From a virus: a stretch of 24,551 nt of DNA. The stretch is from IMG/VR virus record IMGVR_UViG_3300047497_000004, positions 1 to 24,551 of that record; one strand, 5' to 3'. Positions 1-24,551 of this stretch are shown here, in pieces (position 1 is the first letter of the stretch; each line of letters opens with the position of its first letter). Position numbers and translations under genes: made by a program. The notes below the pieces were generated by a model. That model was given only the letters and a program-made list of their open reading frames with translations. It was not told the origin of the DNA and did not search any database.

Positions 1-899
1 CCGAGATTTGGATAAAGCGATCCTTCGCTGATCTTCACGGCGAGTTCGGCGATGTCGACGCCATAGATCGAGGCCAGCACCGACGGGCTTTGCTGCTCAC
101 CCTGGCTGATCGCCGCGGGCAACACCGGCGGCGACAGCCGATCGACCGGCGTGCCGGGCGCGAGCTTGCCCGGATCGACGCCGATGACCCGGCGATAATT
201 GGCTTGCGAGGTGACGAAATTCGACATCGCACCGAGCAACGCGGATCGGCCGGCAGCCAGACGTGATTCGGCCTGGGCGACGTCGGTGCGGGTCACTTCG
301 CCGACATTGAAGCGATCGCGGGTCTGCTTGAGCTGTTCGGTCAACACTTCGACGTTGCGCCGGTTGAGGTCGAGGATGGCCTGATCGCGCAGCAAATTCA
401 TGTAGGCGGTCGCCGCATCGAGCAGAACCTGTTGCTCGGTAACGCGCAACGTCTCCCGGGCGCCCATGACTTGGCTGTCCGCCTGGCGCGTTCGGTTCGC
501 GGTCTGAAAGCCGTTGTACAGCGTCTGGGTGGCGGTGGCGCCGACGCCGCGGGTGCCGAAGTCTCTGGCGAGATTCGAATAGGACACGGAATTGGGAAAC
601 ACCGCCTGACTGACGGTATCGGATAGCGTGCTCGAATAGGTAAAGCCGTCGGTCGAGGTCACGGAAAGCTTTGGCCGATAGCCGGACAATGCCTGCGGCA
701 CATTTTCGTCGGTGGCCCGCAACGAAGCGCGCTGCGCATTGAGCGCCGGATTGTTCTGATAGGCCTGGACCAAGGCCCATTCGAGCGTGTCGGCGGTTGC
801 CACCCGGCATCCCATAGCAATCGCAGCGCCGCCCAGCATGAGGCGCGCCGCAACGCTGATCAGTGTCGGCAGTCTTCGTCTACCCGCGACGTAAGACAA
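1..899 (-). CDS. tolC: TolC-family outer-membrane efflux protein, N-terminal part (runs off left edge)
   Basis: The gene encodes the outer-membrane channel of a type I secretion or tripartite efflux system. Reading leftward from 899 gives about 299 residues without a stop. A basic, hydrophobic N-terminus followed by an A-T-A/D-T-L-E-W signal-peptide junction leads into the typical start of mature TolC (EWALVQAYQNNPALNAQR). Helical-repeat stretches follow, such as QTLYNGFQT, LLDAATAYMNLLRD and GEVTRTDVAQAESRLA, all characteristic of TolC coiled-coil and beta-barrel repeats. The start is a TTG at 897-899, chosen because a strong GGAGGAGG lies 9 bases upstream. An ATG within the signal peptide is a weaker alternative. 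The C-terminal half is outside the window. This is a host gene, not part of the phage. Confidence 0.9.
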   Translation of the reverse strand, partial: MSYVAGRRRLPTLISVAARLMLGGAAIAMGCRVATADTLEWALVQAYQNNPALNAQRASLRATDENVPQALSGYRPKLSVTSTDGFTYSSTLSDTVSQAVFPNSVSYSNLARDFGTRGVGATATQTLYNGFQTANRTRQADSQVMGARETLRVTEQQVLLDAATAYMNLLRDQAILDLNRRNVEVLTEQLKQTRDRFNVGEVTRTDVAQAESRLAAGRSALLGAMSNFVTSQANYRRVIGVDPGKLAPGTPVDRLSPPVLPAAISQGEQQSPSVLASIYGVDIAELAVKISEGSLYPNL

Positions 900-1163
900 C
901 GGTCCCAGCCTCCTCCAACCGCCCGCTACGGTGGCTATTTGCGACGCCAAATCCTACTCAGCCTCCGGCCACCTCAGACCGAAGACACGAAACAAGCAAC
1001 TCTATGCGGCTGGTGGAGTCGGTGGAACCCCAGACCTGGGGACGGCGTGCAGAAATCCGGGCATTGGCACATAAGCGCCACAGGTGACCGACGCATAAAC
1101 GGATCGCGTGGGCCCCAAGGGCTCGCGCGCCCGGTCATCGAGCCACTACAGCCGCTGCGTGTA
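900..1163. other. Host intergenic gap between tolC and the methyltransferase gene
   Basis: No convincing gene is seen here on either strand. It holds the GGAGGAGG ribosome binding site of tolC next to 900, and a small perfect hairpin at 1028-1041 (CCCCA, loop GACC, TGGGG). The hairpin has no T-tract on the minus strand, so it is not a clear terminator. A promoter for tolC probably lies here, but I cannot point to convincing -35 and -10 boxes. Confidence 0.5.
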
Positions 1164-1817
1164 TCAGAAGACGAATTCAGCTGGTGCGGCAAAACCTGGC
1201 AAAACCGGCGCTGCAGCGTCGAAAATGGGACGGCCCGCCAGCCGGCCCTCGACCAGACGATAGATCATCGCCTTGCAGATCGGCAGGCGACCAAAAATGC
1301 AGGCTAGCCGGCCGGTTGGCTTTAATTGATGACCTAATGTCTCGGGTAAGATTTCGGTGCCGCCATTGAGCAGGATGAAATCGTAGGGCGCCGCCGCCGG
1401 CCACCCCGCCGCGAGCGGCCCGGTAGCCACGGTCACCTGACCGGCACCGGCGGCGCCAAGCGCCGCCTTCGCCCGCTGCGCCAGGGACGCGTCCTGTTCT
1501 AGCCCCACCACAGAGCCCGCCAGCCGCGCCAGCACCGCCGAAGCATAACCGGTGGTGCAGCCGACATCGAGAACATGATCGCCCGGACCGATCAGCGCCG
1601 CCTGAATGAGCTTGGCGAGCACCATCGGCTTGAGCATCACCCGGCCGTCGCCGACCGGGATGTCGTTATCGGAATAGGCCTGCCCGACCTGCGCCGGCGG
1701 CACGAACAATTCGCGCGGTACCGCCATCATGGCGTCGATCAAATCGAGACTGGTGACATCGGCGGTGCGGACCTGACAGTCCACCATCACCCGGCGCGCC
1801 ATGGCGCTATCGAACAT
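1164..1817 (-). CDS. Protein-L-isoaspartate O-methyltransferase-like SAM methyltransferase
   Basis: This 217-residue host protein belongs to the PCMT family, which uses S-adenosylmethionine to methylate isoaspartyl residues during protein repair. Visible signs are the N-terminal family segment ending in MMAVPRELFVP, then GDGRVMLKPMVLAKLIQAA, and SAM motif I VLDVGCTTGYASAVL at about residues 80-95. The classic PCMT signature after GDG (TIS-Q-P) is replaced by RVMLKP, as in the divergent alphaproteobacterial paralogues, so the exact substrate is uncertain. The start ATG at 1815-1817 is chosen because homology begins there. The frame stays open further right, but that extension crosses the tRNA remnant and phage DNA. 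It lies upstream of tolC on the same strand. Confidence 0.82.
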   Translation of the reverse strand: MFDSAMARRVMVDCQVRTADVTSLDLIDAMMAVPRELFVPPAQVGQAYSDNDIPVGDGRVMLKPMVLAKLIQAALIGPGDHVLDVGCTTGYASAVLARLAGSVVGLEQDASLAQRAKAALGAAGAGQVTVATGPLAAGWPAAAPYDFILLNGGTEILPETLGHQLKPTGRLACIFGRLPICKAMIYRLVEGRLAGRPIFDAAAPVLPGFAAPAEFVF

Positions 1818-1931: not shown

Positions 1932-1980
1932 TGGAGGCCACGCCCGGAATTGAACCGGGGTAAACGGTTTTGCAGACCGA
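1932..1980 (-). tRNA. 3' half of a tRNA-Cys(GCA) gene: probable left attachment site of the prophage
   Basis: On the minus strand this reads as the anticodon arm (loop CTGCAAA, anticodon GCA at 1971-1973), variable region, a perfect 5-bp T-arm (CCCGG, loop TTCAATT, CCGGG, 1943-1959), the acceptor 3' strand CGTGGCC, discriminator U73 (typical of tRNA-Cys) and an encoded CCA at 1932-1934. The matching 5' acceptor strand GGCCACG and a normal D-arm with GG are absent from the expected place to the right of 1980. The gene is therefore cut in the anticodon-stem region, as expected at an integration junction. The 5' half should lie at the far right end of the prophage, rejoined to a phage-borne copy of this 3' end. 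Confidence 0.8.
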
Positions 1981-2121
1981 CGTGTAACAGCAGCACACTT
2001 GCAATCTATCGAGTAAGTCCCTACAGCATCAGCAGGAAATTGCAGCACAGAGGGAATTATATTCGCTGTGTCATGCACTTAACCTTTTTTACGGTCGACG
2101 CTCCTAAGAAAGGCAGTCCCC
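1981..2121 (+). promoter_or_regulatory. Phage-side leader between the attachment site and the RNA polymerase gene
   Basis: This non-coding leader is the only sizeable untranslated stretch ahead of the replication operon, so a host-type promoter for the phage RNA polymerase should sit here. A TATATT box at 2058-2063 is the best -10 candidate, but no good -35 lies at the right distance. The eight-base word GCAGCACA occurs twice, near 1990 and 2042, and could be part of an operator. AAGAAAGG just before 2113 is the ribosome binding site for the polymerase start at 2122. Promoter and operator are inferences. Confidence 0.3.
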
Positions 2122-4750: not shown

Positions 4751-4965
4751 AGGACAAGTTCGCCCGCGAGATCATGCCGGGTGACGAGGTTGTCTATGCG
4801 GTGCGTGACGGTGATACCGCTGCGCTCCGCTACAGCATTGTCAACGAAGTGTTCGACGACAAGGTCCAGGTGCGAACGCAGGGCGGTGAAGGCTCGATGA
4901 CCTACATTCGTCATCCTGACCGCGTCGCTATCGTGTTCTCACGCCCGGTGCCATGCGAGGACTAA
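4747..4965 (+). CDS. Small hypothetical protein, predicted beta-rich (72 aa)
   Basis: Coupled to the upstream gene by an ATGA overlap. The sequence starts MKDKFAREIMPGDEVVYAV and alternates beta-strand-like segments (LRYSIVNEVFDD, KVQVRTQGG, DRVAIVFSR). PGDEVVYAVR followed by a short insert is a pattern seen in small phage proteins with an SH3- or KOW-like barrel. No catalytic motif is seen and function is unknown. Its place among the first genes after the RNA polymerase fits an early host-takeover role, which is inference only. Confidence 0.7.
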   Translation: MKDKFAREIMPGDEVVYAVRDGDTAALRYSIVNEVFDDKVQVRTQGGEGSMTYIRHPDRVAIVFSRPVPCED

Positions 4966-5726: not shown

Positions 5727-6040
5727 TGTCTCCAGACTTGGCAGCGCGCCGCATCTTGGTCGCTGCCTACTGCTACTACGTGCTCGACACGTCACCCATG
5801 AGTGACGCTGAGTACGACAAGCTCTCGAACATCGTTGCGGATCATTGGGACGAGCTGCCGCCTGTAAGGCAATGGGCACTCGGTAATCCCACAGATACCC
5901 GAGCGAGCGGGAGCCACTTCAAGTTCACAACACTCACTGTCGACGCGGCGCGGCACCTCGTGAAAACCGAGCATCCGTACCCGTCGAAGTGGTCTTTCAA
6001 CAAAGAGCATCAGGTCCACTACGTGACCGCTGTGCTCTAA
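5726..6040 (+). CDS. Free-standing LigA Ia-domain-like protein (104 aa)
   Basis: Residues 8-33 match the NMN-binding Ia domain found at the N-terminus of NAD-dependent DNA ligases: YYVLDTSPMSDAEYDKL. The spacing of Tyr17, Asp27, Tyr30 and Asp31 is exactly that of E. coli LigA Tyr22, Asp32, Tyr35 and Asp36, the NMN-binding residues. There is no adenylation domain: no KxDG, OB fold, zinc finger or BRCT. The remainder (WALGNPTDTRASG, FTTLTVDAARHL) is not part of known ligases. It might bind NAD or NMN, modify the host ligase's use of NAD, or work with a separate nucleotidyltransferase such as the one at 16903-17499. All roles are inferences. Confidence 0.75.
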   Translation: MSPDLAARRILVAAYCYYVLDTSPMSDAEYDKLSNIVADHWDELPPVRQWALGNPTDTRASGSHFKFTTLTVDAARHLVKTEHPYPSKWSFNKEHQVHYVTAVL

Positions 6041-6051
6041 CAAGGAAACCT

Positions 6052-6678
6052 ATGGCTCAGAAAAAGCCGCGTATGATCCTTCCTGTCGGTATCGCCGTGT
6101 GGCCGCACCTCAACGAGATCGAGGTGTACCAGCCGGTCGACAAGAAGGGAAAGCCGAACGGCGCGCAGAAGCGCCACTTCATCACCAAGGTGCGCTACGA
6201 TTCCGCGCAGCTGTCGGCGATCAAGGCCGAACTTAAGAAGCACGCGCTCAAGCTTGGCGTCGGTGAAGACGAGATCGACAGCATCAAGCTGCCCTTCAAG
6301 AAGATCAAGGTCAAAGACAAAGAGGGCAACGTCACCGGCCACGAGTTCTTGCTGCAGGCGACCAGCGGAGAGAAGTATCGTCCCCCGGCGTTCGACGCGA
6401 AGAACAACAAGCTTCCGCCGAGCGTCACGATTGGTGGCGGCAGCAAAATCCGTCTCGATGTCACCGTGAACTATTACGATGGCTTCGGTGGTGGCATCAA
6501 TCTCTACATGAACGCCGTTCAGGTCATCGAGCTTGTCGAAGGTGGTCAGTTCCAGAACAACTTCGGCGAGGAAGAGGGCTTCGAGTACGGCGACGAGGAC
6601 GGTGAGGGTCACTCGTCGTTCGGCGACACGACCACCAGCGAAGAGAAACCGGACCCGAAGACGGCCTACGATTTCTGA
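6052..6678 (+). CDS. Single-stranded DNA-binding protein, T7 gp2.5-like
   Basis: This 208-residue protein coats single-stranded DNA at the phage replication fork and, in T7, contacts the polymerase and primase-helicase. Its place in the operon, basic N-terminal part, central OB-fold-like strands (VTVNYYDGFGGGINLYMNAVQVIELV) and very acidic tail (EEEGFEYGDEDGEG... ending AYDF with a terminal aromatic residue) match gp2.5. Length is close to T7's 232. The ATG at 6052 is chosen because AAGGAAACCT lies directly before it. An in-frame start at 5989 lies inside the previous gene and lacks a ribosome binding site. Confidence 0.88.
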   Translation: MAQKKPRMILPVGIAVWPHLNEIEVYQPVDKKGKPNGAQKRHFITKVRYDSAQLSAIKAELKKHALKLGVGEDEIDSIKLPFKKIKVKDKEGNVTGHEFLLQATSGEKYRPPAFDAKNNKLPPSVTIGGGSKIRLDVTVNYYDGFGGGINLYMNAVQVIELVEGGQFQNNFGEEEGFEYGDEDGEGHSSFGDTTTSEEKPDPKTAYDF

Positions 6679-6893
6679 TGCACACTTCAACCTTCGACTA
6701 CCTGAAGCCCACCGACGACCAAGTCAACCAGATGACCATCGTACGCGGCGCTACCGCTACGTACGCTGAGATTTTGCAGACGATACTCCACGACGGCCCG
6801 GACAAAACCTACGTGCTCCGTAAGCTTCGTGAAGTCGCCATGTGGGCTAACGTGGCTATCACCCGCCATGCGGATGGGTCGCCGAGGCAGTAA
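6678..6893 (+). CDS. Acb2-like small phage protein (DUF7681-type helical hairpin), possible anti-CBASS sponge
   Basis: The 71-residue helical protein shows the family pattern: an F-x-Y-x-x-P start (FDYLKPTDDQ), then M-x-x-V-R followed by an amphipathic helix, a short DGPDKTY turn, and the signature helix L-R-K-L-R-E-V-A-M-W-A-N-V-A-I-T-R ending the domain at about residue 63. Acb2 homologues sequester cyclic di- and trinucleotides made by CBASS defence enzymes. The family match is by pattern from memory; binding activity is inference. It overlaps its neighbours by 1 base (TGATG and TAATG junctions) between SSB and endonuclease I. Other members of this family have no assigned function, so the defence role is not certain. 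Confidence 0.75.
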   Translation: MHTSTFDYLKPTDDQVNQMTIVRGATATYAEILQTILHDGPDKTYVLRKLREVAMWANVAITRHADGSPRQ

Positions 6894-7354
6894 TGGGGAA
6901 ACCGGCTCTCAAGGACGCCCTTGAGAACGCCGAGATCGAAGAGGGCTACCGCTCACGTCTTGAGATCAAGGTGGCCAACCAGCTCGCGAGCGAAGGCATC
7001 AAGTTCGATTACGAGACCCTCGTGATCAACTATCAGGTGCCCGCTCGCGACGCGAGGTACACGCCAGACTTCAACTGCCCTGCGCACATCATCATCGAGA
7101 GCAAAGGGCGGTTTGGTCATCGTGGCAAAGGCGGTGCGGACGAACGCAAGAAGCTGATCCTCGTGAAGGAACAGCATCCGCATCTCGATATTCGGATCGT
7201 TTTCCAGAACGCCAAGACACCGATCTACAAAGGCAGCAAGACAACCTACGCCAAATGGGCAGAGGACCACGGGTTTATGTGGGCCGATAAGGGGGTCGTG
7301 CCGCCAGCGTGGATTGCTGAAATGAAACAAGCACAATCAAGGAAGCAATCATGA
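6893..7354 (+). CDS. Endonuclease I, Holliday-junction resolvase (T7 gp3-like)
   Basis: This 153-residue nuclease cuts branched DNA and, in T7, helps degrade host DNA and resolve concatemer branches before packaging. The T7 active-site set is complete: YRSRLE24 (T7 Glu20), YTPD59 (T7 Asp55) and the pair E69-x-K71 in IIIESKG (T7 Glu65 and Lys67). The KVANQLASEGIKFDYE segment after the first glutamate is also diagnostic. Length is near T7's 149. TAATG and ATGA overlaps couple it to both neighbours. Confidence 0.95.
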   Translation: MGKPALKDALENAEIEEGYRSRLEIKVANQLASEGIKFDYETLVINYQVPARDARYTPDFNCPAHIIIESKGRFGHRGKGGADERKKLILVKEQHPHLDIRIVFQNAKTPIYKGSKTTYAKWAEDHGFMWADKGVVPPAWIAEMKQAQSRKQS

Positions 7355-8192: not shown

Positions 8193-9836
8193 ATGAGTGA
8201 GTTTGTAGCTCATGAGGCGTGCCCGAAGTGTGGTTCGCAAGACAACCTTGCGCGCTATGACGACGGGCACGCCCATTGTTTCGGCTGTGACTACCACGAA
8301 CCTGCAACAGGAGAAACGAAACGGGTGGATGAAACACCTAAGGATTGGCGACCGATCAGCGGCAACTATCAGGACCTGATTGATCGCGGGATACGCGAAG
8401 AGACCCTGAAGTTCTGGAAGTACCAAGTCGGGACCTACAAGGGCAAGCCTGCCCACATCATGAACTGGCGCGACGAGACAGGTGATCTCGTTGGTCAGAA
8501 GTTCAGACAGCCGGGCAAAGAGTTCAGCTGGCTTGGTGAGGGTACCGATCTGCTCTACGGCATGTGGCTGTGGGGCAAAGGCAAGAGCATCACCATCACC
8601 GAGGGTGAACTTGACGCCCTGTCGGTGAGCCAAGCGTTCGGCAACAAGTGGCCTGTGGTCTCACTGCCGAACGGCTCGAAGTCGGTCAAGAAGGTCATCA
8701 AGCGTTGCTACGACTACCTGATGAACTTCGAGAAGATCGTCCTCATGTTCGATCAGGACGAGCCAGGGCACGCTGCGGTATCCGAGGCTGTCGATCTGCT
8801 CCCTGCGGGTAAGGTCTACATCGCCACGCTGCCCGAGAAGGACGCCAACGAAGTCCTGAAGAAGCACGGACCCGGCAAGATCACTGACGCCTTCTGGAAC
8901 GCCAAGCCGTATCGGCCTGACGGTATCATCAGCGGCGCGGACATCAGCCTGGACGAGCTGCGCACTGCGAGCACCAAGGGGTACAACCTTCGCCTCCCTG
9001 ATCTGAACAATCGGCTGCTTGGGCTCCGTAAGGGTGAGATCACCCTTTGGACCGCAGGGTCTGGCATAGGCAAGTCAACGATGCTGCGTCAGCTCTTCTA
9101 CGAGGTCCACCAAGACTACCCGGAGCTGACGTTTGGAAACGTGTTCCTCGAAGAGAACAACAAGAAGACTGCGCAGGCTTACATCGCGCTGGACAATAGC
9201 GTTCCTCTTGGACGGCTACGTTACAATCCAGAAATCATTACCCCCGAGCAGTGGCAGTCGTCGTACGACCGCGTCGTCAAGGAACGCATGTGGTTCTACA
9301 ACCACTTTGGTTCGCTTGAGAGCGAGCGTCTGATCAGCAAGCTGCATTACATGGCGACGGTACTTAAGGTCGACTTCATTGCACTCGACCACATCTCGAT
9401 TGTTACCTCCGGTTTGGAGAGCAGCAGTGAGGGTGAGCGTAAGGACATCGACATTCTGATGACCCGCTTGCGCCAACTGGTCGAAGAGACCGGCGTAGGC
9501 ATACAGGGCGTCGTCCATCTGAAACGCGTGAAGGACAAGAACTTCAATGAGGGTGGCGCTGTATCGCTTACCGATCTCCGTGGCTCTGCTTCTCTTGAAC
9601 AGCTGTCTGATAACGTCGTGTCACTAGAGCGCGATCAGCAGGGTGACAAGAAGGACGTGTCATTGATCCGCGTGCTCAAGTGTCGTGAGACAGGCGACAC
9701 CGGAGAGAGCGACACCGTGCTCTACAAGCGGGACACAGGGAGACTTGTGTTGACCGAGGCCGAGCAGGCGTTCCCTGAGATCAAGACGGAAGCCGTCGAC
9801 AACAAAGGCAACCCTATCGAACCCGAGGTGTTCTGA
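8193..9836 (+). CDS. Primase-helicase, T7 gp4-like
   Basis: This 547-residue replication enzyme unwinds DNA and makes RNA primers. An N-terminal zinc ribbon uses C10-x2-C13 and C29-x2-C32. The TOPRIM primase domain shows ITEGELDALS, with its metal-binding glutamate, and MFDQDEPG. The RecA-like helicase has Walker A WTAGSGIGKST (T7 GSGMGKST), Walker B FIALDHISIV, and a late motif LRGSASLEQLSDNVVSLERD. Length is close to T7's 566. The start ATG at 8193 directly follows the previous stop; ATGAGTG gives a second in-frame choice only further in. Confidence 0.96.
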   Translation: MSEFVAHEACPKCGSQDNLARYDDGHAHCFGCDYHEPATGETKRVDETPKDWRPISGNYQDLIDRGIREETLKFWKYQVGTYKGKPAHIMNWRDETGDLVGQKFRQPGKEFSWLGEGTDLLYGMWLWGKGKSITITEGELDALSVSQAFGNKWPVVSLPNGSKSVKKVIKRCYDYLMNFEKIVLMFDQDEPGHAAVSEAVDLLPAGKVYIATLPEKDANEVLKKHGPGKITDAFWNAKPYRPDGIISGADISLDELRTASTKGYNLRLPDLNNRLLGLRKGEITLWTAGSGIGKSTMLRQLFYEVHQDYPELTFGNVFLEENNKKTAQAYIALDNSVPLGRLRYNPEIITPEQWQSSYDRVVKERMWFYNHFGSLESERLISKLHYMATVLKVDFIALDHISIVTSGLESSSEGERKDIDILMTRLRQLVEETGVGIQGVVHLKRVKDKNFNEGGAVSLTDLRGSASLEQLSDNVVSLERDQQGDKKDVSLIRVLKCRETGDTGESDTVLYKRDTGRLVLTEAEQAFPEIKTEAVDNKGNPIEPEVF

Positions 9837-10060: not shown

Positions 10061-10236
10061 TCAATCCGATGTGCCCTGTCTGCAGGGAGTTCGACGAAGA
10101 GTGCTTCAAGAAGTCCTTCGTCGCTGGCCGGGCGGTCTGCAGCAAACAACTCGAACTGCCGCTGTGTATGCCGAGTAGCGGCGTGCCGCGCATCAAACAG
10201 AAGGAAGTGTATGAACCGTCTGCTCTTCGATACTGA
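10057..10236 (+). CDS. Small zinc-ribbon-like protein (59 aa)
   Basis: A GTG start at 10057 overlaps the previous stop (GTGA), with GAAGAG just upstream. The first half reads M-C-P-V-C-R-E-F-D-E-E-C, then AVCSKQLELPLC, so paired and later cysteines could bind a metal. An ATG at 10069 is the alternative start. The end overlaps the DNA polymerase start by 26 bases. No known family. Confidence 0.55.
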   Translation: MINPMCPVCREFDEECFKKSFVAGRAVCSKQLELPLCMPSSGVPRIKQKEVYEPSALRY

Positions 10237-12301
10237 GAGCAACGGCCTCCTAGATACCGCAACCAAAATCCACTGTGTCGCTGCGATTGATGTTGATACC
10301 AAAGAGCGCCTCGATTGGAAGCCCGATGACAACGGGTACCTCGAAGCGCTCGACAAGGCCGATGTTCTGATCGGCCACAACATTCAACGCCACGACATTC
10401 CACTGATCACCAAGCTGACCAGTTGGAAACCGCGCCCCACCGTGAAGCTTCGCGACACGATGATCATTGCGCGCTTGGAGCACCCGAACGTCAAGGACAC
10501 TGACAAACAGCTGATCCAGACGGGCAAGATGCCAGCCGGAAAGAAGTACCAGGGCAAGCACACGCTTGGAGCCTGGGGCTATCGCCTGGGCTGTCACAAG
10601 GGTGACTACGCGGACATCAAGGAAGCCGAGTGGCTCGATCTGTATCCGAACCTCGCCAAAGAGCTGCCTGAAGACAAGCTCAAGGAACGGATACTGGAAT
10701 ACGTGTGGGGCACCTGGAGCCCCGAGATGCACGCCTACATGCTGCAGGACCGCGAGACCAACTTGGCCCTGTGGGACTTCCTGCAGGTCGACGAGTATTC
10801 CCAGGACGCCATCGACCTTGAGCATCGCATCGCCCGCGTGTGTGACCTTATGGAGCGCGCTGGTGTGCCGTTCGACGTACCGGCTGCTGGTAAGCTGCAG
10901 GGCGAGCTGCTGACCGAACGGGACAACATCGAGCGTGCGCTGGTTGCCAAGTTCGGCTTCTGGTACGCGCCGGTCAGCCCGAACCCCGACAAGGCGACCT
11001 TCTATCCCAAACAGACCAGCAAGACTTCCACGTTTGTTGGTTGGGAAGACGGTGTGCCGCAATGGAAGGGCTCAGGCTACACCGAAGGCTGTCCTGCGAC
11101 GAAGCTGAAGCTCGTGCAGTTCAACCCCGGCTCTCGCGACCACATCGCCAAGGTGTTGCTTGCGAAGGGTTGGGAGCCGACCAAGATGACGGAGGGCGGC
11201 AAGCCGCAGATCGACGAAGAGACTGTTGAGGCGATTGTTGCTCGCTATCCCGAGTTCGATGGTCTCGGTCGATACCTGATGCTTGAGAAGCGGCTGTCTC
11301 AGCTCGCTGACGGCAAGCGTGCGTGGCTCGCAGAGGTGAAAGATGATGGCCGTATCCACGGCGTCATCAATCCTATGGGGACCACGACGAGCCGTGCGTC
11401 TCACATGTACCCGAACCTTGGACAGGTGCCGAACGCTGCGAGCCCTTATGGCCCGGAGTGCCGTGCTTTGTTCTACGCACCGAAAGGATGGTCAATCGTC
11501 GGCGCTGACCAACAAGGTTTGGAGCTGCGCGGTCTCGCTCACTATTTGGTCCCGATGGATGGCGGCAAGTACGCCAAGGTCGTGCTCGAAGGTGATCCTC
11601 ACTGGCTCCATGCGCAAGTCATGGGCCTCGCCGAGGGTGAGCGAGACAAGCACAACAAGCTGCACGTCATCATCCGCGAAGACGGCTCGAAGCGCTTCAT
11701 CTACGCGTACGTCTATGGCTGTTGGGATGAGAAGGCCGGTGAGATCATCTACACCTGTCTGCTCAAGGCCATGCGTGAGTGTGGCGACATCGGTGGCAAG
11801 GAGCTGTACGTCAAGTTCTTCGGTGACGGGCAATTCCCTACGAAGCGTAAGCTGATCAAAGTCGGCAACACGGTTCGCAGCGCGTTCCTCAATCGCCTGG
11901 AAGGCTTTGGCAAACTCAAAGAGAAGCTGACCAAACAAGTCGATCAGTTTCATTGGGTGCCTGGGCTCGACGGGCGGCGCATCCCTACCCGCTCCGATCA
12001 CTCGGCGTTGAACTTCCTGATCCAAAGCGCAGGCGCGATTGTCTGTAAGCGATGGGTCGTGGACGCGTTCGACGCAATGTGCGCGGCGTTTCGCTATGAC
12101 TTCGACAACCCCTGGAATGGAGAGTTCGTATTCGGACTTTGGGTACACGATGAAATCCAAGTGTGGGTCCGCGAAGGGCTCGAAGAGAAAACCTGCGCCA
12201 TCCTCAAGGCGACCGCGAGCAAAGCTGGCGAGCCGTACGGGTTCCGCGTGCGTCTCGATGGCGAAGCAAAAGTCGGCAAGAACTGGAAAGACACCCACTG
12301 A
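10211..12301 (+). CDS. DNA polymerase, family A (T7 gp5-like) with proofreading exonuclease
   Basis: This 696-residue replicative polymerase is near T7's 704. The 3'-5' exonuclease is intact: ExoI LLFDTESNGL, ExoII IGHNIQRHDIP and ExoIII YMLQDRETN all keep the catalytic acids. The polymerase domain has motif A IVGADQQGLELRGLAHY (T7 Asp475), motif B REDGSKRFIYAYVYG (T7 Arg518, Lys522, Tyr526) and motif C WVHDEIQVW (T7 Asp654). The thumb segment before FNPGSRDHI, where T7 has its thioredoxin-binding insert, is of similar size but different sequence (DKATFYPKQTSK), so dependence on host thioredoxin is open. AAGGAAG precedes the ATG. Confidence 0.97.
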   Translation: MNRLLFDTESNGLLDTATKIHCVAAIDVDTKERLDWKPDDNGYLEALDKADVLIGHNIQRHDIPLITKLTSWKPRPTVKLRDTMIIARLEHPNVKDTDKQLIQTGKMPAGKKYQGKHTLGAWGYRLGCHKGDYADIKEAEWLDLYPNLAKELPEDKLKERILEYVWGTWSPEMHAYMLQDRETNLALWDFLQVDEYSQDAIDLEHRIARVCDLMERAGVPFDVPAAGKLQGELLTERDNIERALVAKFGFWYAPVSPNPDKATFYPKQTSKTSTFVGWEDGVPQWKGSGYTEGCPATKLKLVQFNPGSRDHIAKVLLAKGWEPTKMTEGGKPQIDEETVEAIVARYPEFDGLGRYLMLEKRLSQLADGKRAWLAEVKDDGRIHGVINPMGTTTSRASHMYPNLGQVPNAASPYGPECRALFYAPKGWSIVGADQQGLELRGLAHYLVPMDGGKYAKVVLEGDPHWLHAQVMGLAEGERDKHNKLHVIIREDGSKRFIYAYVYGCWDEKAGEIIYTCLLKAMRECGDIGGKELYVKFFGDGQFPTKRKLIKVGNTVRSAFLNRLEGFGKLKEKLTKQVDQFHWVPGLDGRRIPTRSDHSALNFLIQSAGAIVCKRWVVDAFDAMCAAFRYDFDNPWNGEFVFGLWVHDEIQVWVREGLEEKTCAILKATASKAGEPYGFRVRLDGEAKVGKNWKDTH

Positions 12302-12305
12302 GGCA

Positions 12306-12512
12306 GTGGCACGCCTGCACGATCTAATCGTTCGTGTGTGGCGTCACCACGTCAGTGTGAAGTCCGACTACGCCCGCGAGAACGCGCAGATCGTTGGGAT
12401 GGCCGCGTCGTTACAAATGATCACCACGAAGGTCGGCCGGTCTACCTACGCAAACGCGTGGCACGTGACCAGACAAGGGCTGACGTGGCTTCACGATCAG
12501 GACAACAAATGA
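12306..12512 (+). CDS. Small hypothetical protein (68 aa)
   Basis: A GTG start at 12306 lies 4 bases after the polymerase stop; the ribosome binding site (TGAGG) is close and weak, so re-initiation is likely. The product is basic and helical (LHDLIVRVWRHHVSVK, ENAQIVGMAASLQMIT) and ends WHVTRQGLTWLHDQ, which resembles the end of a small helix-turn-helix, without a firm match. The stop overlaps the next start (ATGA). The reading frame stays open upstream into the polymerase gene, so the start is uncertain. Confidence 0.55.
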   Translation: MARLHDLIVRVWRHHVSVKSDYARENAQIVGMAASLQMITTKVGRSTYANAWHVTRQGLTWLHDQDNK

Positions 12513-12949
12513 AAATCTATATGGCTGGTCCGCTGTTCACGCGGGCCGAGCAGGACTTCAACACGAAGCTCGCTGACCGCCTGCGCCAGATCGGGTTCAA
12601 GATTTGGCTCCCGCAGGACTTCGAGCAGCAGCAGACGACTGCCAAGGCCATCTTCGACATCGACGTTCAAGGTGTTGATTGGTGCGACATCGTCCTGGCG
12701 AACATGGACGGCTCTGATCCTGACAGCGGTACCTGTTGGGAAGTCGGGTATGCCTACAAGCGCAAGCACATAATCCTGTATCGCACGGACATTCGGTCTG
12801 AGAGTGATCCTCTCGGTCCCTATAACCTGATGATGCATCAATCGGCTGACGCGGTGGTCGACTGTAAGGGTATGGCGTTCGAGGCGATGCTGCAGGAGAT
12901 ACTCAAGGCACTCTACGCTGCCGTGAAGAAACGGATGGAGACGAAGTGA
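12509..12949 (+). CDS. Nucleoside 2-deoxyribosyltransferase-like protein
   Basis: This 146-residue protein belongs to the fold that swaps or hydrolyses the N-glycosidic bond of deoxyribonucleosides (transferases and the DNPH1-type hydrolases). It starts with the family's first strand MKIYMAGPLF, has WCDIVLANMDGSDPDSGT in the middle, and the catalytic glutamate is Glu78 in CWEVGYAY. This D-x-D-x-G-T-x-x-E-x-G-Y-A arrangement is characteristic. It probably recycles or alters deoxynucleosides for phage DNA synthesis; hydrolysis rather than transfer cannot be excluded. ATGA and GTGA overlaps join it to its neighbours, just before the exonuclease. Confidence 0.82.
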   Translation: MKIYMAGPLFTRAEQDFNTKLADRLRQIGFKIWLPQDFEQQQTTAKAIFDIDVQGVDWCDIVLANMDGSDPDSGTCWEVGYAYKRKHIILYRTDIRSESDPLGPYNLMMHQSADAVVDCKGMAFEAMLQEILKALYAAVKKRMETK

Positions 12950-13713
12950 AGTCGACGATCCTTCTGATCGACGGCGACCAGTTCATCTTCAAGGCGACTG
13001 CAGCACTCGAAAAGGAAACCCGGTGGGATGACCAGAACCACGTTCTGTATTCCAACGCCGACGAGTGTGAGGCCAATCTCAACAGTATGCTTGAGCGCAT
13101 CTTCGAGCGCTTCAGCAGCCGTGAGCACGCCCTGTGCTTCTCTGCAGCACCAAACTTCCGCCGTGAGATCGACCCGACGTACAAGGCCGGGCGCTCGCCG
13201 CGCAAGCCTCTCTGCTATGCGGAGCTGCGGGAACGCGTGGAGGCGAAGTACAACTGTCTCGCTATGCCGGGCCTCGAAGCCGACGACGTGATGGGCATCC
13301 TGGCAACCAAGCCGAATGCTCAGACGAAGATCATCGTGTCCCAAGACAAGGACATGAAGGGCATCCCTGGTCAGGTATGGGACGGCAAGGACTTGGTGTC
13401 GGTCAGTCAGGCCGAGGCTGATTACTTCCATCTGTATCAGACGCTGATCGGAGACACGAGCGACGGGTACAAAGGTTGCCCTGGTGTCGGACCAAAGAAG
13501 GCCGAGGTGATCCTAAAGGGTCCTACGGTTGAGGGTGAGGTTGTCGACGAGAACTTCGACGCGTTGCCGTGGCAGCGCATTGTCAAAGCCTACGTCACCG
13601 CTGGTCTCACCGAGGAACACGCGCTGACCCAAGCACGGCTCGCGCGCATCCTGCGGTGGACTGATTGGGACGTGGAGAACAAGAAGCCGATCCTGTGGAC
13701 ACCGACCCGATAG
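12946..13713 (+). CDS. 5'-3' exonuclease, T7 gp6-like (PIN/FEN family)
   Basis: This 255-residue nuclease removes RNA primers and degrades DNA from 5' ends. Metal-binding motifs are visible: LLIDGDQFIF near the start, PGLEADDVMG at about residue 110, SQDKDMKGIPG at about 130, and the helix-3-turn-helix GDTSDGYKGCPGVGPKKAE at about 168-185, which grips DNA. The GTG start at 12946 overlaps the previous stop. It completes the T7-like replication set with polymerase, primase-helicase, SSB and endonuclease I. Confidence 0.94.
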   Translation: MKSTILLIDGDQFIFKATAALEKETRWDDQNHVLYSNADECEANLNSMLERIFERFSSREHALCFSAAPNFRREIDPTYKAGRSPRKPLCYAELRERVEAKYNCLAMPGLEADDVMGILATKPNAQTKIIVSQDKDMKGIPGQVWDGKDLVSVSQAEADYFHLYQTLIGDTSDGYKGCPGVGPKKAEVILKGPTVEGEVVDENFDALPWQRIVKAYVTAGLTEEHALTQARLARILRWTDWDVENKKPILWTPTR

Positions 13714-14676: not shown

Positions 14677-15036
14677 ATGAGCTGGTGGAAACCCTTTAAT
14701 TGGCGGCGTGCTCGTCCCGTTGTTGACCTGCACGACCTTGCTGACGCCATCAAAGACATCGAGCCTACCAATACACCGCTTCTCAAGAGCATCGAACGCA
14801 AAGCCGAGCTGCGCAAGCTTCCCGGCAAATACGAGGAAGTGTTCTACAAGGGAGCATGGTTCACGTTCAAACAACTGAGCGTCGTCTATGTGGTCCCTGC
14901 TCACATCTTACGGCAACGGATCAAGGATCATAACTGGTCCGTCGAAGACGCTATCAACACACCCGTGCGAGCCAGGACTCGTAAGCAGAGGACTGTCTAC
15001 GATTACGCTTTGAGGAACGGACCAACGAACGACTGA
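14677..15036 (+). CDS. Small protein with phage HTH-like segment (119 aa)
   Basis: CAGGAAAAT precedes the ATG, after one of the few true gaps in the operon. Residues 55-97 contain the pattern Y-K-G-A-W-F-T-F-K-Q-L-S-x-x-Y-x-V followed by LRQRIKDHNWSVEDAINTPV. The ending W-S-V-E-D-A-I-x-T-P is typical of small helix-turn-helix segments attached to phage homing nucleases and DNA-binding proteins. No nuclease domain is present here. It may bind DNA; target unknown. Confidence 0.65.
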   Translation: MSWWKPFNWRRARPVVDLHDLADAIKDIEPTNTPLLKSIERKAELRKLPGKYEEVFYKGAWFTFKQLSVVYVVPAHILRQRIKDHNWSVEDAINTPVRARTRKQRTVYDYALRNGPTND

Positions 15037-15530
15037 TGAAACACCGACGCCTCTACCTCGACATGGACGGCGTGCTCGCCAACTTCGACAAGAGAGCCGA
15101 AGCAATCCTGGGCACGAACAACATCTACAAGTACGAGTTCATTTGGGGTCCTGAGAAGTTCTGGACGGAGATCAACAAGCACGAAGATTTCTTCCTGAGC
15201 CTCGAACTGATGCCCGACGCGTACGAGCTGTACACTGCGGTCTACCATCTGGACCCGGTGATCCTCACGGCACTCCCGAAGACCGGCGCAGAACGCGTGC
15301 GGTCACAGAAGGAAGCCTGGGTCGAACTGAACCTCTCGATCAACGGAAAGGTCCCGAAGGTCATCGCGTGCAAGACGCACGAGAAGCCTTTGTACTGCCT
15401 CCCTGAGGACGTGCTGATCGACGACCGTGCGGTCAATCGTGACGCGTGGCGCAAGGCCGGTGGGCACTACATCGTCCATCGGAATGCCAGCGAGAGCCTG
15501 CAGCAACTAGAATACCTGGGGGTTATCTGA
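15036..15530 (+). CDS. HAD-family 5'(3')-deoxyribonucleotidase-like protein
   Basis: This 164-residue protein carries the HAD nucleophile motif LYLDMDGVLANFDKR (Asp9 and Asp11). Motif II is present as DPVILTALPKT, and the late acidic motif as EDVLIDDRAVNRDAW. The cap region with EFIWGPEKFW fits the deoxyribonucleotidase branch (5' nucleotidase, deoxy C type). It would remove phosphate from deoxynucleoside monophosphates. It sits 4 genes from DUF5664 and MazG homologues, consistent with control of nucleotide pools. TGATG overlaps on both sides. Confidence 0.82.
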   Translation: MKHRRLYLDMDGVLANFDKRAEAILGTNNIYKYEFIWGPEKFWTEINKHEDFFLSLELMPDAYELYTAVYHLDPVILTALPKTGAERVRSQKEAWVELNLSINGKVPKVIACKTHEKPLYCLPEDVLIDDRAVNRDAWRKAGGHYIVHRNASESLQQLEYLGVI

Positions 15531-16814: not shown

Positions 16815-16906
16815 ACGTCCAAGAGGTAGCTGACGTGCTGCTTGGCTTCTTCATTGGGTTCGTCGGCGGCATCCTGTTCACTCTGTTCTACGTGGGGATC
16901 ATTTGA
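16811..16906 (+). CDS. Very small membrane protein (31 aa)
   Basis: A complete short gene between MazG-like and RNA ligase genes, with ATGA overlap at its start and a TTGA overlap at its end. The sequence begins MNVQEVADVLLG, then FFIGFVGGILFTLFYVGII, a single hydrophobic span with small glycine turns. It should be an inner-membrane protein. The overlaps on both sides argue that it is translated. Function unknown. Confidence 0.55.
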   Translation: MNVQEVADVLLGFFIGFVGGILFTLFYVGII

Positions 16907-17499
16907 TCTTCGAGCCGTTCCCTAAGCTCGCACGACTGTCCCGCGAATGCACCATCACAGAGAAGATCGACGGGACGAACGCACAGATCATCATTGTCGA
17001 TCCTGAGACGCTTGAGGGTTCTGAGTACGAAGAGGTCATCCAGGCTGACGCCCTCGCAGAGATCGAAGGTCTGCTTGTGTTCGCTGGTTCCAGAACTCGT
17101 CTGATTACCCCAGGGAAAGCCAAGGATAACTTCGGCTTCGCTGCGTGGGTCTACGAGAACACCAACGACCTCGTGAAGCTTGGTCCTGGCCGTCACTTCG
17201 GTGAGTGGTGGGGCAAAGGCATCCAGCGGGGCTACGGTCTCACCGAGCGCCGCTTCTCGCTCTTCAACACCCACGGCATCCAACACAAGCCAGACTGCGT
17301 CAGCGTGGTGCCTACGATCTACCAAGGACACTTCAGCACGTTCCAAGTCTACCGCGCTATGCTCAAACTTGGACGCGATGGATCAGTAGCTGCCCCAGGT
17401 TTCATGAAGCCCGAGGGCATCGTGATCTGGCACTCGGCCGCGCGGGTCGCCTTCAAGAAAACCTTCGAACACGACGAGAAAGGAAAGGAAGCTGCGTGA
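16903..17499 (+). CDS. RNA ligase family protein (nucleotidyltransferase domain only)
   Basis: This 198-residue protein is a covalent nucleotidyltransferase of the RNA ligase family (PF09414 type). Motif I is TEKIDGTNAQI with nucleophile Lys21; a motif III-like segment is HFGEWWGKGIQRGYG (99-111); motif IV is EGIVIWH with Glu171; motif V is FKKT with Lys185/186. There is no separate C-terminal domain, as in the smallest family members. It would seal RNA ends; use on nicked DNA is possible but less likely. The TTG start at 16903 overlaps the previous stop and has GGGGA upstream; no better start exists in frame. Confidence 0.85.
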   Translation: MIFEPFPKLARLSRECTITEKIDGTNAQIIIVDPETLEGSEYEEVIQADALAEIEGLLVFAGSRTRLITPGKAKDNFGFAAWVYENTNDLVKLGPGRHFGEWWGKGIQRGYGLTERRFSLFNTHGIQHKPDCVSVVPTIYQGHFSTFQVYRAMLKLGRDGSVAAPGFMKPEGIVIWHSAARVAFKKTFEHDEKGKEAA

Positions 17500-18730: not shown

Positions 18731-18943
18731 TTAGCGCTTCTGGTGTTGGAAGCTGTTCACTGCGGCGTTGTTGATGTCGGCCACTGATAGTGGACGAGAC
18801 GTGCCGCTGTACGCCGCAGGAGCCACAGGGGCAGCTGCAGGCACCGGCGCTGCAACAGAGGCAGCTTTGAACTTCGCAACGATCAAACTGAACGCCGCGA
18901 GAACCTGCTGTTCCTCTTCGTCGGTGAAGGTAATGGTGGCCAT
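18731..18943 (-). CDS. Small alanine/proline-rich phage protein (70 aa)
   Basis: Last gene of the leftward late module, with AGGATAACAT before its ATG and its stop next to the terminator. The N-terminal helix (FTDEEEQQVLAAFSLIVAKFKAA) is followed by an alanine-proline-rich linker (APVPAAAPVAPAA) and a short polar tail. No family recognised. Position after the lysis genes could suit a small virion or packaging protein, but that is inference. Confidence 0.65.
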   Translation of the reverse strand: MATITFTDEEEQQVLAAFSLIVAKFKAASVAAPVPAAAPVAPAAYSGTSRPLSVADINNAAVNSFQHQKR

Positions 18944-18946
18944 ATG

Positions 18947-19180
18947 TTATCCTAGGTGAAGCCCGAGGGCCGCAGCGATAACGCTGGACTTGGTCAATGC
19001 GCAGAAGACTGCAGCACCACCCCAGGCGTACCACTGTTTCTTTTCGACCGCCCGCAGGCGCTCGTCGTACTTCTCGTGAGCCTTTAGGAGGTGCTTTACG
19101 TCCGTGTGGATTTCAGCGATCAGATACGGCGTGGACGTAGTGATGTCACCGCCGTGATCCTGCGCCGTTACTTCTTCCAT
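18947..19180 (-). CDS. Holin-like small membrane protein (77 aa)
   Basis: An N-terminal charged helix (LIAEIHTDVKHLLKAHEKYDERLRAVEKKQ) is followed by one hydrophobic segment (WYAWGGAAVFCALTKSSVIAAALGL). A coiled coil before a single C-terminal membrane helix recalls XhlA-like and gp17.5-like phage holins. Its place directly after the spanins and endolysin supports a lysis role. The ATG at 19180 is preceded by TGGAAG; a GTG at 19189 is the alternative. It overlaps the end of the o-spanin gene. Confidence 0.62.
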   Translation of the reverse strand: MEEVTAQDHGGDITTSTPYLIAEIHTDVKHLLKAHEKYDERLRAVEKKQWYAWGGAAVFCALTKSSVIAAALGLHLG

Positions 19181-19446
19181 GGCTTCCACTTCGGATCGTT
19201 GACGCAGAGACGCACGCCAGCGGCGTTGTTCTCCACGACTTGCTTCACGGTCTGCGAGGTGTCCTTGTGTGACCAGTGGACAGGATTGAAAGCCTGACAG
19301 GCCACCTCAGGGGTCTTAATCTCGGGCGAAGCCGTCCGATCCGTGATGCACCCGACCAACGACGCCGCGAGGATGGGCATCAAACCGGCCAGCGTCAAAT
19401 TTCTTATCAGCCGCTGCGCGAGCGGCGAGAGCGTGCGCAACCGCAT
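19168..19446 (-). CDS. o-spanin (Rz1-like outer-membrane lipoprotein)
   Basis: Starting at the ATG at 19444-19446 the 92-residue product opens with basic residues, then a hydrophobic stretch ending in lipobox L-V-G-C at Cys33 (LMPILAASLVGC). The rest is a short periplasmic segment. This is how Rz1-type o-spanins look: they are lipidated and pair with the i-spanin to fuse inner and outer membranes at lysis. The gene overlaps the i-spanin gene by 131 bases in another frame. An earlier in-frame start at 19536 would spoil the signal peptide and is rejected. Confidence 0.85.
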   Translation of the reverse strand: MRLRTLSPLAQRLIRNLTLAGLMPILAASLVGCITDRTASPEIKTPEVACQAFNPVHWSHKDTSQTVKQVVENNAAGVRLCVNDPKWKPWKK

Positions 19447-19771
19447 CGGCGGTCTCCTGTTTGTTTTCTTTGATGATCTCTTGGAAAGCTTTGGTGTCGA
19501 TGGCCTGCTGCCGGTGTCGACCGTGAACGTCGCCATAGATCATGACGGCGAACAGCAGGGCGACGAAGGCAACCGCGAGGGCCACATACTTCACCAGGGG
19601 GCCGAGAAGCGTCCCCACGAAGGTCGCGAGCACCGTCCCTACCGGACCAAACAAGGCCGGGAAGAGCGCGCCGATCCGCGAGAACGCGGAGGCGACCTTG
19701 GGGAGCATCGAGACCACCTTGGGAACCAAGCCCATAGCGAAGGCTGTGGCTTCGGTCAGTAGGTTCTTCAT
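19316..19771 (-). CDS. i-spanin (Rz-like) candidate, inner-membrane lysis protein
   Basis: This 151-residue protein has hydrophobic, glycine-rich segments at about residues 33-56 and a clear membrane helix at about 58-80 (KYVALAVAFVALLFAVMIYG). A charged helical part follows (TKAFQEIIKENKQETADAVAHALAARAAADKK), as expected for a periplasmic coiled coil. It starts with AAGGAACCCA before the ATG, overlapping the endolysin stop (ATGA). The o-spanin gene lies in another frame within its 3' part. More than one hydrophobic segment is unusual for an i-spanin, so a combined holin-like role is possible. Confidence 0.75.
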   Translation of the reverse strand: MKNLLTEATAFAMGLVPKVVSMLPKVASAFSRIGALFPALFGPVGTVLATFVGTLLGPLVKYVALAVAFVALLFAVMIYGDVHGRHRQQAIDTKAFQEIIKENKQETADAVAHALAARAAADKKFDAGRFDAHPRGVVGRVHHGSDGFARD

Positions 19772-20766
19772 TGGGTTCCTTGCGCCGCTGCGAGCAGGCG
19801 CTTGTACTTTCGGTGGTCAGCCCACACGAAGGCCGCACAGGCGACCATGGCGAACGGCAGGAGCACCGAGGGGTGATGGAAGAGCCACACGGCAACGTCG
19901 GCCGCGTGCAGCTCACTGAGGTTGAACTTGGCAATCGAGAGCTTCGAGGCGATGTCGTTCGCCTTGTCGAGCAAGTCGGCCGCGCCCGAGCTTCCCAGGA
20001 ACACTGCGGCCCATCCGGTCTTCGATTTGAGCATCGAGGGCGGCTTGGGAGCCTCAGGAGACGTGGGGGGTACTTGGGTAGCGGGCTGCTCGTTTTGACG
20101 AACCACGGACTCGCTCTGTGGCTCGTTTTTGGGCTTATCGGGCTCCAAAACGCACCGAGCGCCAGGATGCGGGTCATCCCCGCCGTAAGCCTTACCGGCC
20201 AGATCGGGGCCGCAATAGTGAGCACTCGGGGCGAGCGTCGGGTGTCCTTCGGATGCAAGGTGTTCGCTGTAGGAGCGCACCGAGGCAACCCGAGGCGTCC
20301 AACCGCGACCGTAGGTGCCCCAGGTCGGCAGGTGCCGCAGGAACGCCATACGCTCGTCGTTGATCGCATCGACAACGTGGACAGGATTGACGTGCCGTAG
20401 CGTCTCGATGACCTCGTCAGACACGCGCCCGTCTCCAAGGGGTAGACCAAGCACGCGGCGAAGCACGTGAGCTGACCGAGCGATACCAGAGTGAACCCCA
20501 TAATCGAGCACAGTGTAATCGACACCGGCAGGCAACTCGTCGCACCGAAGTGCGGCCCAATACTTCGACTGAAAGATAGAGACTGCGACGGAGCGCGGCA
20601 TGTTGCGCACGTCTTCAGCGGTGGCGTCTGCTTTCCAATGGAGCCGCGCGTCCCGAAGTGTAATCCCCATGTTCGTGGGGCCACCAGGGTCGCGCGGGTC
20701 ATTGACGTAGCCGCCCTCGCTCAGCAGAACGCGTCGTACGCATTCCGCTTCATCGAGCGTAGCCAA
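19768..20766 (-). CDS. Endolysin, GH108-type muramidase with C-terminal membrane anchor
   Basis: This 332-residue enzyme should cleave the peptidoglycan backbone. The N-terminal GH108 motif is LLSEGGYVNDPRDPGGPTNMGIT with catalytic Glu17, followed by the PG-binding-3-like part (YTVLDYGVHSGIARSAHVLRRVLG, DGRVSDEVI). After about residue 205 comes a proline-glutamate-rich linker, then a C-terminal hydrophobic span near 295-315 (SVLLPFAMVACAAFVWADH) ending with basic residues. Such an anchor is uncommon for a released endolysin. The TTG start at 20766 is used because AAAGG lies 10 bases upstream and the family motif begins right after it. Confidence 0.88.
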   Translation of the reverse strand: MATLDEAECVRRVLLSEGGYVNDPRDPGGPTNMGITLRDARLHWKADATAEDVRNMPRSVAVSIFQSKYWAALRCDELPAGVDYTVLDYGVHSGIARSAHVLRRVLGLPLGDGRVSDEVIETLRHVNPVHVVDAINDERMAFLRHLPTWGTYGRGWTPRVASVRSYSEHLASEGHPTLAPSAHYCGPDLAGKAYGGDDPHPGARCVLEPDKPKNEPQSESVVRQNEQPATQVPPTSPEAPKPPSMLKSKTGWAAVFLGSSGAADLLDKANDIASKLSIAKFNLSELHAADVAVWLFHHPSVLLPFAMVACAAFVWADHRKYKRLLAAAQGTQ

Positions 20767-20789
20767 GAGATAGAACCTTTCGGTTTAAG

Positions 20790-21317
20790 TTATTGCCAAT
20801 CAATTTCGGTAACGCACCACAGCTGAGTTCCGAGGTTGGTGAAGCCGCTTCCAGATAAGACTGCAGCGCTGTTGGTTGTTACCAACGCACCGCTTTGTGA
20901 AGCAGCAACGGTGCCGTAGGTGATGTTGCCTGAGCTGACGTAGAACGACACGACAAGCGGCACGGTGTTGTTCAGAGAGAAAGCACACCAATCACTCAAC
21001 ACTTGAGTTCCGGCCGGGATCGTAACACCAGCACTTCCTGAGAACGCAAGCGCGTTCAGAGACGAGGCGGTGAAGTTGCCGCCACCATACGTGCCACTCA
21101 AGGGACCTACGTAAGCAGCCCCGAGAACAAGAGAACCGCTAGGGCCAGCTTTGAAGCCGACCCTAATACGCGAGGTTCCTGATGCAGGAAAGTTTGACGT
21201 AGCAAACGTCGCCTTGATGGTATAAGCGCCGGGGGTCGAGTTTGATCCTAGAGTGAAGTTCACCGTATTCAGTGGACCTAAGCCGCCCGCAAACACCATA
21301 GCGAGGCCAGGGATCAT
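20790..21317 (-). CDS. Small beta-sandwich phage protein, tail-associated (175 aa)
   Basis: The ATG at 21317 overlaps the fibre gene's stop (TAATG); an upstream start would lie within the fibre gene. The protein is beta-rich and low in charge: SRIRVGFKAGPSG, VLGAAYVGPL, LAFSGSAGVTIPAGTQVLSD, PLVVSFYVSSG. The run G-V-T-I-P-A-G-T-x-V-L-S-D followed by a V-x-F-Y-V strand is what I know from the beta-sandwich domain that precedes SGNH/GDSL esterase domains. The esterase domain itself is absent. Likely a receptor-binding or fibre-tip protein. Confidence 0.7.
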   Translation of the reverse strand: MIPGLAMVFAGGLGPLNTVNFTLGSNSTPGAYTIKATFATSNFPASGTSRIRVGFKAGPSGSLVLGAAYVGPLSGTYGGGNFTASSLNALAFSGSAGVTIPAGTQVLSDWCAFSLNNTVPLVVSFYVSSGNITYGTVAASQSGALVTTNSAAVLSGSGFTNLGTQLWCVTEIDWQ

Positions 21318-23191: not shown

Positions 23192-23814
23192 CAGTAATGT
23201 TCAAACTCCCAATCGGGTGGCATGACGTGACAAGGCTGGACAACGGCAGCGCCGTTCTCGTCGTCCTCGTCGGATTGATCTTGAAGATCGTTTAGGATCG
23301 TCTGGTACTGCTCTTCCCAATCGTCCTTGCGCATATCTTTGTAGTAGATGGCCGCTTGGACTAGAGCCGCATAAACGATGATGTCCCAGGCCATCAAAGA
23401 GATGACGTTGGTGTCCGTGGGGTTCACCAGGGCGGGAAGACCGGCGTAATAGTCGATCTGAATAACGTCGCCGATGTTCGGCGCAGGACCGAGTACCCAC
23501 TTGGCACCCTGACGACAGTACACATCAGGGTTTCCGTTCACCTGAGCCTTGACCAGCGCCTTCGTTATGTCGGTCTTGGTCAGCTTCAGGTACGTGTTGA
23601 GTGGGTAGATGTCGATCAGCTCAAGGAAGTCGTTCGGGATCAACAGACCACTATACGGAGCAGAGATGGTGACTTGCACACTCTCTTCCATAGCGGGGCA
23701 CCGAAGCTCCCGTTGGATACGCATGATGAAGGTCGTCTGTAGAGCCGTGTTGGCCGTGAAGTCACGACGGTTCATCAACCCGGTTACTTGGGCCTGAATT
23801 TCACTGAGTTGCAC
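23191..23814 (-). CDS. Phage adaptor-like (head-tail connector) protein
   Basis: This 207-residue protein has the look of the podoviral adaptor/connector group: an N-terminal helical part with R-R-D-F-T-A-N, then FIMRIQRELRCPAMEES, PNDFLELIDIYP, and a long helix (NVISLMAWDIIVYAALVQAAIYYKD) followed by acidic residues near the end (LNDLQDQSDEDDENG). Such proteins bridge portal and tail. The GTG at 23814 is the only reasonable start; AAGG is rather far upstream. It precedes the fibre gene with a TGATG overlap, matching a structural operon. Confidence 0.7.
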   Translation of the reverse strand: MQLSEIQAQVTGLMNRRDFTANTALQTTFIMRIQRELRCPAMEESVQVTISAPYSGLLIPNDFLELIDIYPLNTYLKLTKTDITKALVKAQVNGNPDVYCRQGAKWVLGPAPNIGDVIQIDYYAGLPALVNPTDTNVISLMAWDIIVYAALVQAAIYYKDMRKDDWEEQYQTILNDLQDQSDEDDENGAAVVQPCHVMPPDWEFEHY

Positions 23815-23826
23815 GGCAAAGAAACC

Positions 23827-24240: not shown

Positions 24241-24241
24241 A

Positions 24242-24532: not shown

Positions 24533-24551
24533 TTGATCCGTTGGAAAAAAG

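Follow-up and report, generated by a model that had tools for sequence, protein, structure and literature searches.

The polymerase-side attachment junction of a probable temperate T7-like prophage in a tRNA-Cys gene, with an integrase expected at the far end

Introduction

T7 serves as the textbook example of a strictly lytic phage; by what means its temperate relatives hold so potent an RNA polymerase in check is unsettled. The temperate T7-like group is reportedly treated in "Sheep in wolves' clothing" by Boeckman and colleagues. Among the described systems closest to the locus presented here, the T7-like Rhizobium phage Pasto (MT708545) carries an HTH gene and a tyrosine integrase upstream of its RNA polymerase, with a tRNA between integrase and polymerase. 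In the Pseudomonas phage LUZ100 (OP329100) a MarR-like gene, the integrase and the polymerase lie on one strand, and MarR-based control of the polymerase has been proposed; its authors obtained no stable lysogens (PMC10134795). The T7-like cyanophages P-SSP7 and S-TIP37 have an attP directly downstream of the integrase that matches a host tRNA gene, and their integration has been shown experimentally (PMC8776855). A comparable principle comes from the integration-dependent immunity of mycobacteriophages such as BPs, where attP is positioned such that integration affects regulation, the attachment site being linked to the repressor gene (PMC4557955).

The stretch of DNA analyzed here, henceforth the window, is the entire IMG/VR record IMGVR_UViG_3300047497_000004, a linear metagenome-type fragment of 24,551 bp; the other half of the prophage lies outside this record. 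We interpret the window, with a probability of about 0.85, as the polymerase-side att junction of a temperate T7-like (Autographiviridae-type) prophage lodged in the anticodon stem-loop of a tRNA-Cys(GCA) gene, with its integrase expected at the far end.

The junction and its host side

A preliminary description made from the letters of the window had noted only the 3' half of a tRNA-Cys(GCA) at the junction, a phage RNA polymerase about 140 bases away and no integrase in its vicinity. All three observations, coordinates included, are borne out. The remnant comprises the 5' strand of the anticodon stem, the anticodon (1971-1973), the T arm, the acceptor and CCA; ARAGORN detects no whole tRNA anywhere in the window, and an intact tRNA-Cys spanning the site, looked for as a counter-indication, was not seen. 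The complete polymerase ORF starts 142 bp to the right of the remnant, and the PF00589 profile detects no tyrosine integrase in the whole window. The 48-mer occurs a single time (0 matches across 100 shuffles) and is identical to the 3' half of the intact tRNA-Cys genes in four genomes (L095, L099, L100 and L102) of the genus that has the most similar protein-L-isoaspartate O-methyltransferase-like (PIMT) protein. The window PIMT shares 72% identity with its best relative, and a TolC gene adjoins PIMT in the relatives as well. Thus, host genes and half of a host tRNA-Cys stand at the junction, as befits integration at a tRNA gene of the host chromosome.

On the phage side (Table 1), the window codes for its own single-subunit RNA polymerase, followed by the T7-type replication order of gp2.5-like SSB, endonuclease, primase-helicase, DNA polymerase and exonuclease, all recognized by PHROG matches. 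The primase-helicase is 76% identical to its counterpart in G001. The layout is not confined to a single strand: the late genes for lysis, tail-fibre and head proteins (18731-24551) lie on the minus strand opposite the replication genes, unlike in T7, and the same is seen in the genomes G393, G001 and G002. Because of this departure from the T7 strand layout, we file the phage as T7-like rather than as a formal member of Autographiviridae.

Table 1. Features of the window, with coordinates, strand and the basis of each assignment
Feature	Coordinates	Strand	Basis
Host TolC-type outer membrane efflux protein, truncated by left edge	3-950	-	PF02321, E 2.6e-36
Host protein-L-isoaspartate O-methyltransferase-like (PIMT)	1164-1805	-	PF01135, E 1.4e-29
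Orphaned 3' half (48 nt) of host tRNA-Cys(GCA); polymerase-side attachment junction	1932-1979	-	plus-strand letters TGGAGGCCACGCCCGGAATTGAACCGGGGTAAACGGTTTTGCAGACCG
Predicted last integrase codons of free phage, TVLQTDV*, overlapping core	1964-1987	+	G393 frame and stop position
Predicted crossover core, anticodon stem-loop CGGTCTGCAAAACCG	1965-1979	-	G393 att comparison
Phage attachment arm and polymerase leader	1980-2121	+	comparison with G393 arm
T7-type single-subunit RNA polymerase, 829 aa	2122-4611	+	PHROG 414, E 1.6e-187, nearly full length; PF00940
gp2.5-like ssDNA-binding protein	5989-6678	+	PHROG 112
Endonuclease (T7 gp3 position)	6893-7354	+	PHROG 945
T7-type primase-helicase	8193-9836	+	PHROG 239
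Family A DNA polymerase	10211-12301	+	PHROG 17; PF00476
Nucleoside 2-deoxyribosyltransferase-like gene, between DNA polymerase and exonuclease	12338-12949		PF05014
Exonuclease	12946-13713	+	PHROG 107
5'-3' deoxyribonucleotidase	15036-15530	+	PHROG 2643
RNA ligase	16903-17499	+	PHROG 548
Endolysin (glycosyl hydrolase 108)	19768-20766	-	PHROG 315; PF05838
Tail-fibre-like protein	21317-23191	-	PHROG 38058, E 4.5e-10
Virion structural (adaptor) protein	23191-23814	-	PHROG 2941; PF24175

Complete prophages and an empty site in relatives

A search with the polymerase over 392 genomes of the host family returned eight genomes with a match. The most informative is G393, an 8.74 Mb chromosome with a prophage (also present as the IMG/VR record IMGVR_UViG_2922425934_000002) inserted in tRNA-Cys near tRNA-Asn, PIMT and TolC. 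This prophage is collinear with the window: one strand bears the genes for the RNA polymerase, SSB, endonuclease, primase-helicase, DNA polymerase, exonuclease, RNA ligase and an acetyltransferase, and the late genes lie opposite. Its polymerase adjoins a 48-nt tRNA-Cys 3' half (49130-49177 of the joined stretch L149-L151), and its far end displays a MarR-like gene, an integrase (PF00589) and an intact, hybrid tRNA-Cys (4785-4858) that abuts the integrase. From core to core the insert measures 44.3 kb. A second full tRNA-Cys prophage in G189 shows the same arrangement, with the remnant by the polymerase and the integrase by the intact tRNA-Cys. The preliminary description had expected an integrase and a repressor at the far end, together with a repeat of the tRNA half; the anatomy of G393 and G189 supports this, both carrying a second att copy there, and the window's own far end, outside its record, is by analogy probably built in the same way.

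The crossover is predicted to lie in the anticodon stem-loop, the remnant end being visible in the window and the rebuilt-tRNA end only in G393 and G189. Both att copies of the G393 prophage share a mismatch-free stretch around the crossover only across the anticodon stem-loop region, which defines the predicted core. Beyond it, the phage-side half and the host half are 79% identical over 48 nt and share the acceptor end, so that the tRNA rebuilt on integration is a hybrid. This hybrid is the sole complete tRNA-Cys match in G393 (next to the one remnant), and the phage-free genome G438 has one uninterrupted gene in its stead. The comparison with an uninfected relative that had been proposed at the outset is thus provided by G438, the flanks of which meet exactly where the G393 prophage inserts: the left flank, 95.6% identical, extends through tRNA-Cys to its end and the right one picks up at the remnant, marking an empty site. 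Of the 11 bases with which the phage arm begins in the window, 9 agree with the G393 arm, and the stretch is unlike the tRNA 5' half; an exact search of viral contigs with the attachment arm returned no match.

Integrase, attP and polymerase

Among the viral loci that hold both genes, the integrase is directly upstream of the polymerase on the same strand in 27/27, and 17 of the 27 have a MarR-like ORF just upstream of the integrase. The window itself contains no MarR-like gene. MarR-like ORFs also occur in the prophages of G393, G189, G116, G224 and G056; in these five, as in the IMG/VR records G032, G037 and G038, the integrase and the polymerase are at opposite prophage ends. The invariant gene order, combined with the prophage ends in G393 and G189, leads to the conclusion that the attachment site lies between integrase and polymerase. 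Hence, integration places the two genes at opposite ends and the polymerase comes to be outermost at the junction, which reconciles the "integrase upstream" of temperate T7-like phages with the "polymerase first" of the window. Queries of the viral contigs with the RNA polymerase protein gave no matches, and with the helicase they did; the sole match to the G393 integrase was a record of 100% identity, presumably its own. A complete tRNA-Leu gene was also observed between integrase and RNA polymerase in the T7-like viral contigs L014, L030, L034, L037, L040 and L053.

We propose that the free circular phage would carry, on one strand, the MarR-like gene, the tyrosine integrase, attP and the RNA polymerase. 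The integrase would recombine attP with the host tRNA-Cys at the anticodon stem-loop, opening the circle between integrase and polymerase, such that the polymerase would land against the orphaned host 3' half, giving the junction of the window. The MarR-integrase module would land at the other end (44 kb off in G393), beside a hybrid tRNA-Cys predicted to combine a 5' half from the host with a 3' half brought by the phage. A short stretch in the window is supportive of this scheme: the G393 integrase ORF crosses the tRNA 3' half in antisense direction and has its stop codon shortly beyond the core, so that it ends in TVLQTVA* in the lysogen and would end in TVLQTDL* in the free form (the phage arm being joined by script), and the corresponding TVLQTDV* of the window may be read as a trace of its integrase.

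The orientation of the host genes led us to consider an assembly chimera, whereby a contig of free phage would have been merged with one of the host via the tRNA sequence they share, the individual phage not being integrated. The origin of the record as a metagenome-type fragment would permit this, and the 3' end of tRNA-Cys in the window faces PIMT, the two genes being co-directional, whereas they are divergent in 63/63 sampled family genomes having both nearby; nor was the arrangement of the window found in its own host genus among the sampled genomes. However, a join through shared sequence preserves orientation and would leave the flipped tRNA unexplained. Moreover, the co-directional order is present in six phage-free genomes of the G393 genus (L260-L265), so that such rearrangements occur naturally and no chimera is required; with the related prophages of G393 and G189 truly inserted in tRNA-Cys near PIMT, we regard a chimera as very unlikely. 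About equally unlikely is an insertion without integrase, be it through host-driven recombination or as a defective remnant that lost the gene. The window does lack an integrase and the second half of the prophage is beyond the record, but the crossover position, the attachment arm and the integrase-frame tail match the G393 integrase system, and the window genes are intact and collinear with those of a complete prophage. The suggestion in the preliminary description that another mechanism might insert the phage finds no support.

Two side observations concern the same neighborhood. The tRNA-Asn/tRNA-Cys block flips its orientation among Bradyrhizobium-like genomes, and in L269 an extra tRNA-Cys 3' half is found ~1.4 kb downstream of the intact tRNA-Cys, likely the trace of another small element.

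Prophages in tRNA-Leu and repeats near att

T7-like prophages were also found in tRNA-Leu(TAA), namely in G224 (L161 6579-6753, L163 8942-8986), G116 and G056. In these, the host tRNA-Leu is split at the anticodon, its 5' half being found at the polymerase end and its 3' half at the end with the integrase; a complete tRNA-Leu carried by the phages adjoins the integrase. This pattern, named tRNA-dependent lysogeny in actinobacteriophages (PMC10865867), is here present in alphaproteobacterial prophages of the T7-like type. The att core is bordered on one or both sides by GGTGACA repeats, commonly spaced by 12-13 bp, in G189 (11038, 11146, 53447-53504) and, near att, also in G224, G116 and G004. 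These are candidate arm-type integrase sites, some of which overlap promoter-like -35 boxes.

How the polymerase might be kept silent

Integration would detach the polymerase from the read-through of the integrase-side operon, the neighboring host genes reading away from it, and the MarR-like protein encoded at the far end would repress any leftover promoter activity. This joint action of separation and a MarR-like repressor is our preferred explanation of silencing, held at near even odds against the repressor alone. Indeed, the host genes beside the polymerase read away from it in both the window and G393. In LUZ100, polymerase synthesis is proposed to begin through limited read-through from the MarR-integrase unit, the MarR-like protein acting as the repressor (PMC10134795). 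Our scan of the region between att and polymerase, a weak one that covered sigma-70 only, found no consensus promoter in the 142-bp leader (1980-2121) of the window or in G393 but two promoter-like sites in G189, and its result is therefore not decisive. A search for a phage promoter motif common to the leader and other genes returned words of at most three copies, barely above controls and resembling coding background. In the tRNA-Leu prophages, furthermore, the 5' half of the host tRNA reads towards the polymerase. Given this direction of reading and the promoter-like sites of G189, separation alone cannot be claimed as a general mechanism.

A MarR-like protein might, on the other hand, suffice by binding the leader between att and polymerase, with the position of attP devoid of any regulatory role. 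We see this as possible, at somewhat below an even chance: MarR-like ORFs lie directly upstream of the integrase in many relatives, the MarR-like regulator of LUZ100 is proposed to repress the polymerase via promoter-flanking sites (PMC10134795), and G189 does have promoter-like sites in this interval. It sits less well with the scan of the window and G393, weak and sigma-70-only as it is, or with the proposal that the first polymerase transcripts of LUZ100 arise by read-through of the integrase operon (PMC10134795), which would be lost on integration at the attP described here. With attP located between integrase operon and polymerase gene, one could go further and regard integration itself as a genetic switch, in which insertion would cut the polymerase off from its sole host-driven transcript and excision would reconnect it, topology being the main agent and the MarR-like protein a helper; we consider this stronger version rather doubtful. 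The recurrent integrase-attP-polymerase order and the opposite-end prophages together yield a simple hypothesis that is testable in culturable soil bacteria. For annotators, the same arrangement is a warning that an integrase should not be presumed absent from a T7-like prophage when none lies beside the polymerase at its border.

Comparison with known systems

Among the closest counterparts of the window is the G393 prophage, with which it shares the target gene, the neighborhood, the collinear genes, the polymerase by an orphan tRNA-Cys 3' half and the late genes on the opposite strand; the G393 prophage differs in having a polymerase of only 46% identity, a host of a different genus and a complete extent in which the MarR-integrase end is visible. 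Pasto, for all its similarity of layout, has a complete tRNA-Leu rather than half of a tRNA-Cys, and several genes between integrase and polymerase. The LUZ100 polymerase is 31% identical, and that phage has a tRNA-Leu of its own between the MarR-like gene and the integrase. P-SSP7 and S-TIP37 share the attP next to the integrase at a tRNA, but their target is tRNA-Leu and neither a repressor nor stable lysogens have been found for them, whereas the alphaproteobacterial relatives studied here are resident prophages. With integration-dependent immunity there is a likeness of principle only and not membership: the attachment site here is between integrase and polymerase, and that of G393 is at the 3' end of the integrase and not in the MarR-like gene. 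Thus, the phage of the window joins the known temperate T7-like phages, such as Pasto and LUZ100, and its general layout is ordinary rather than new; what is particular to its lineage are the tRNA-Cys site, the late module on the opposite strand and the host group.
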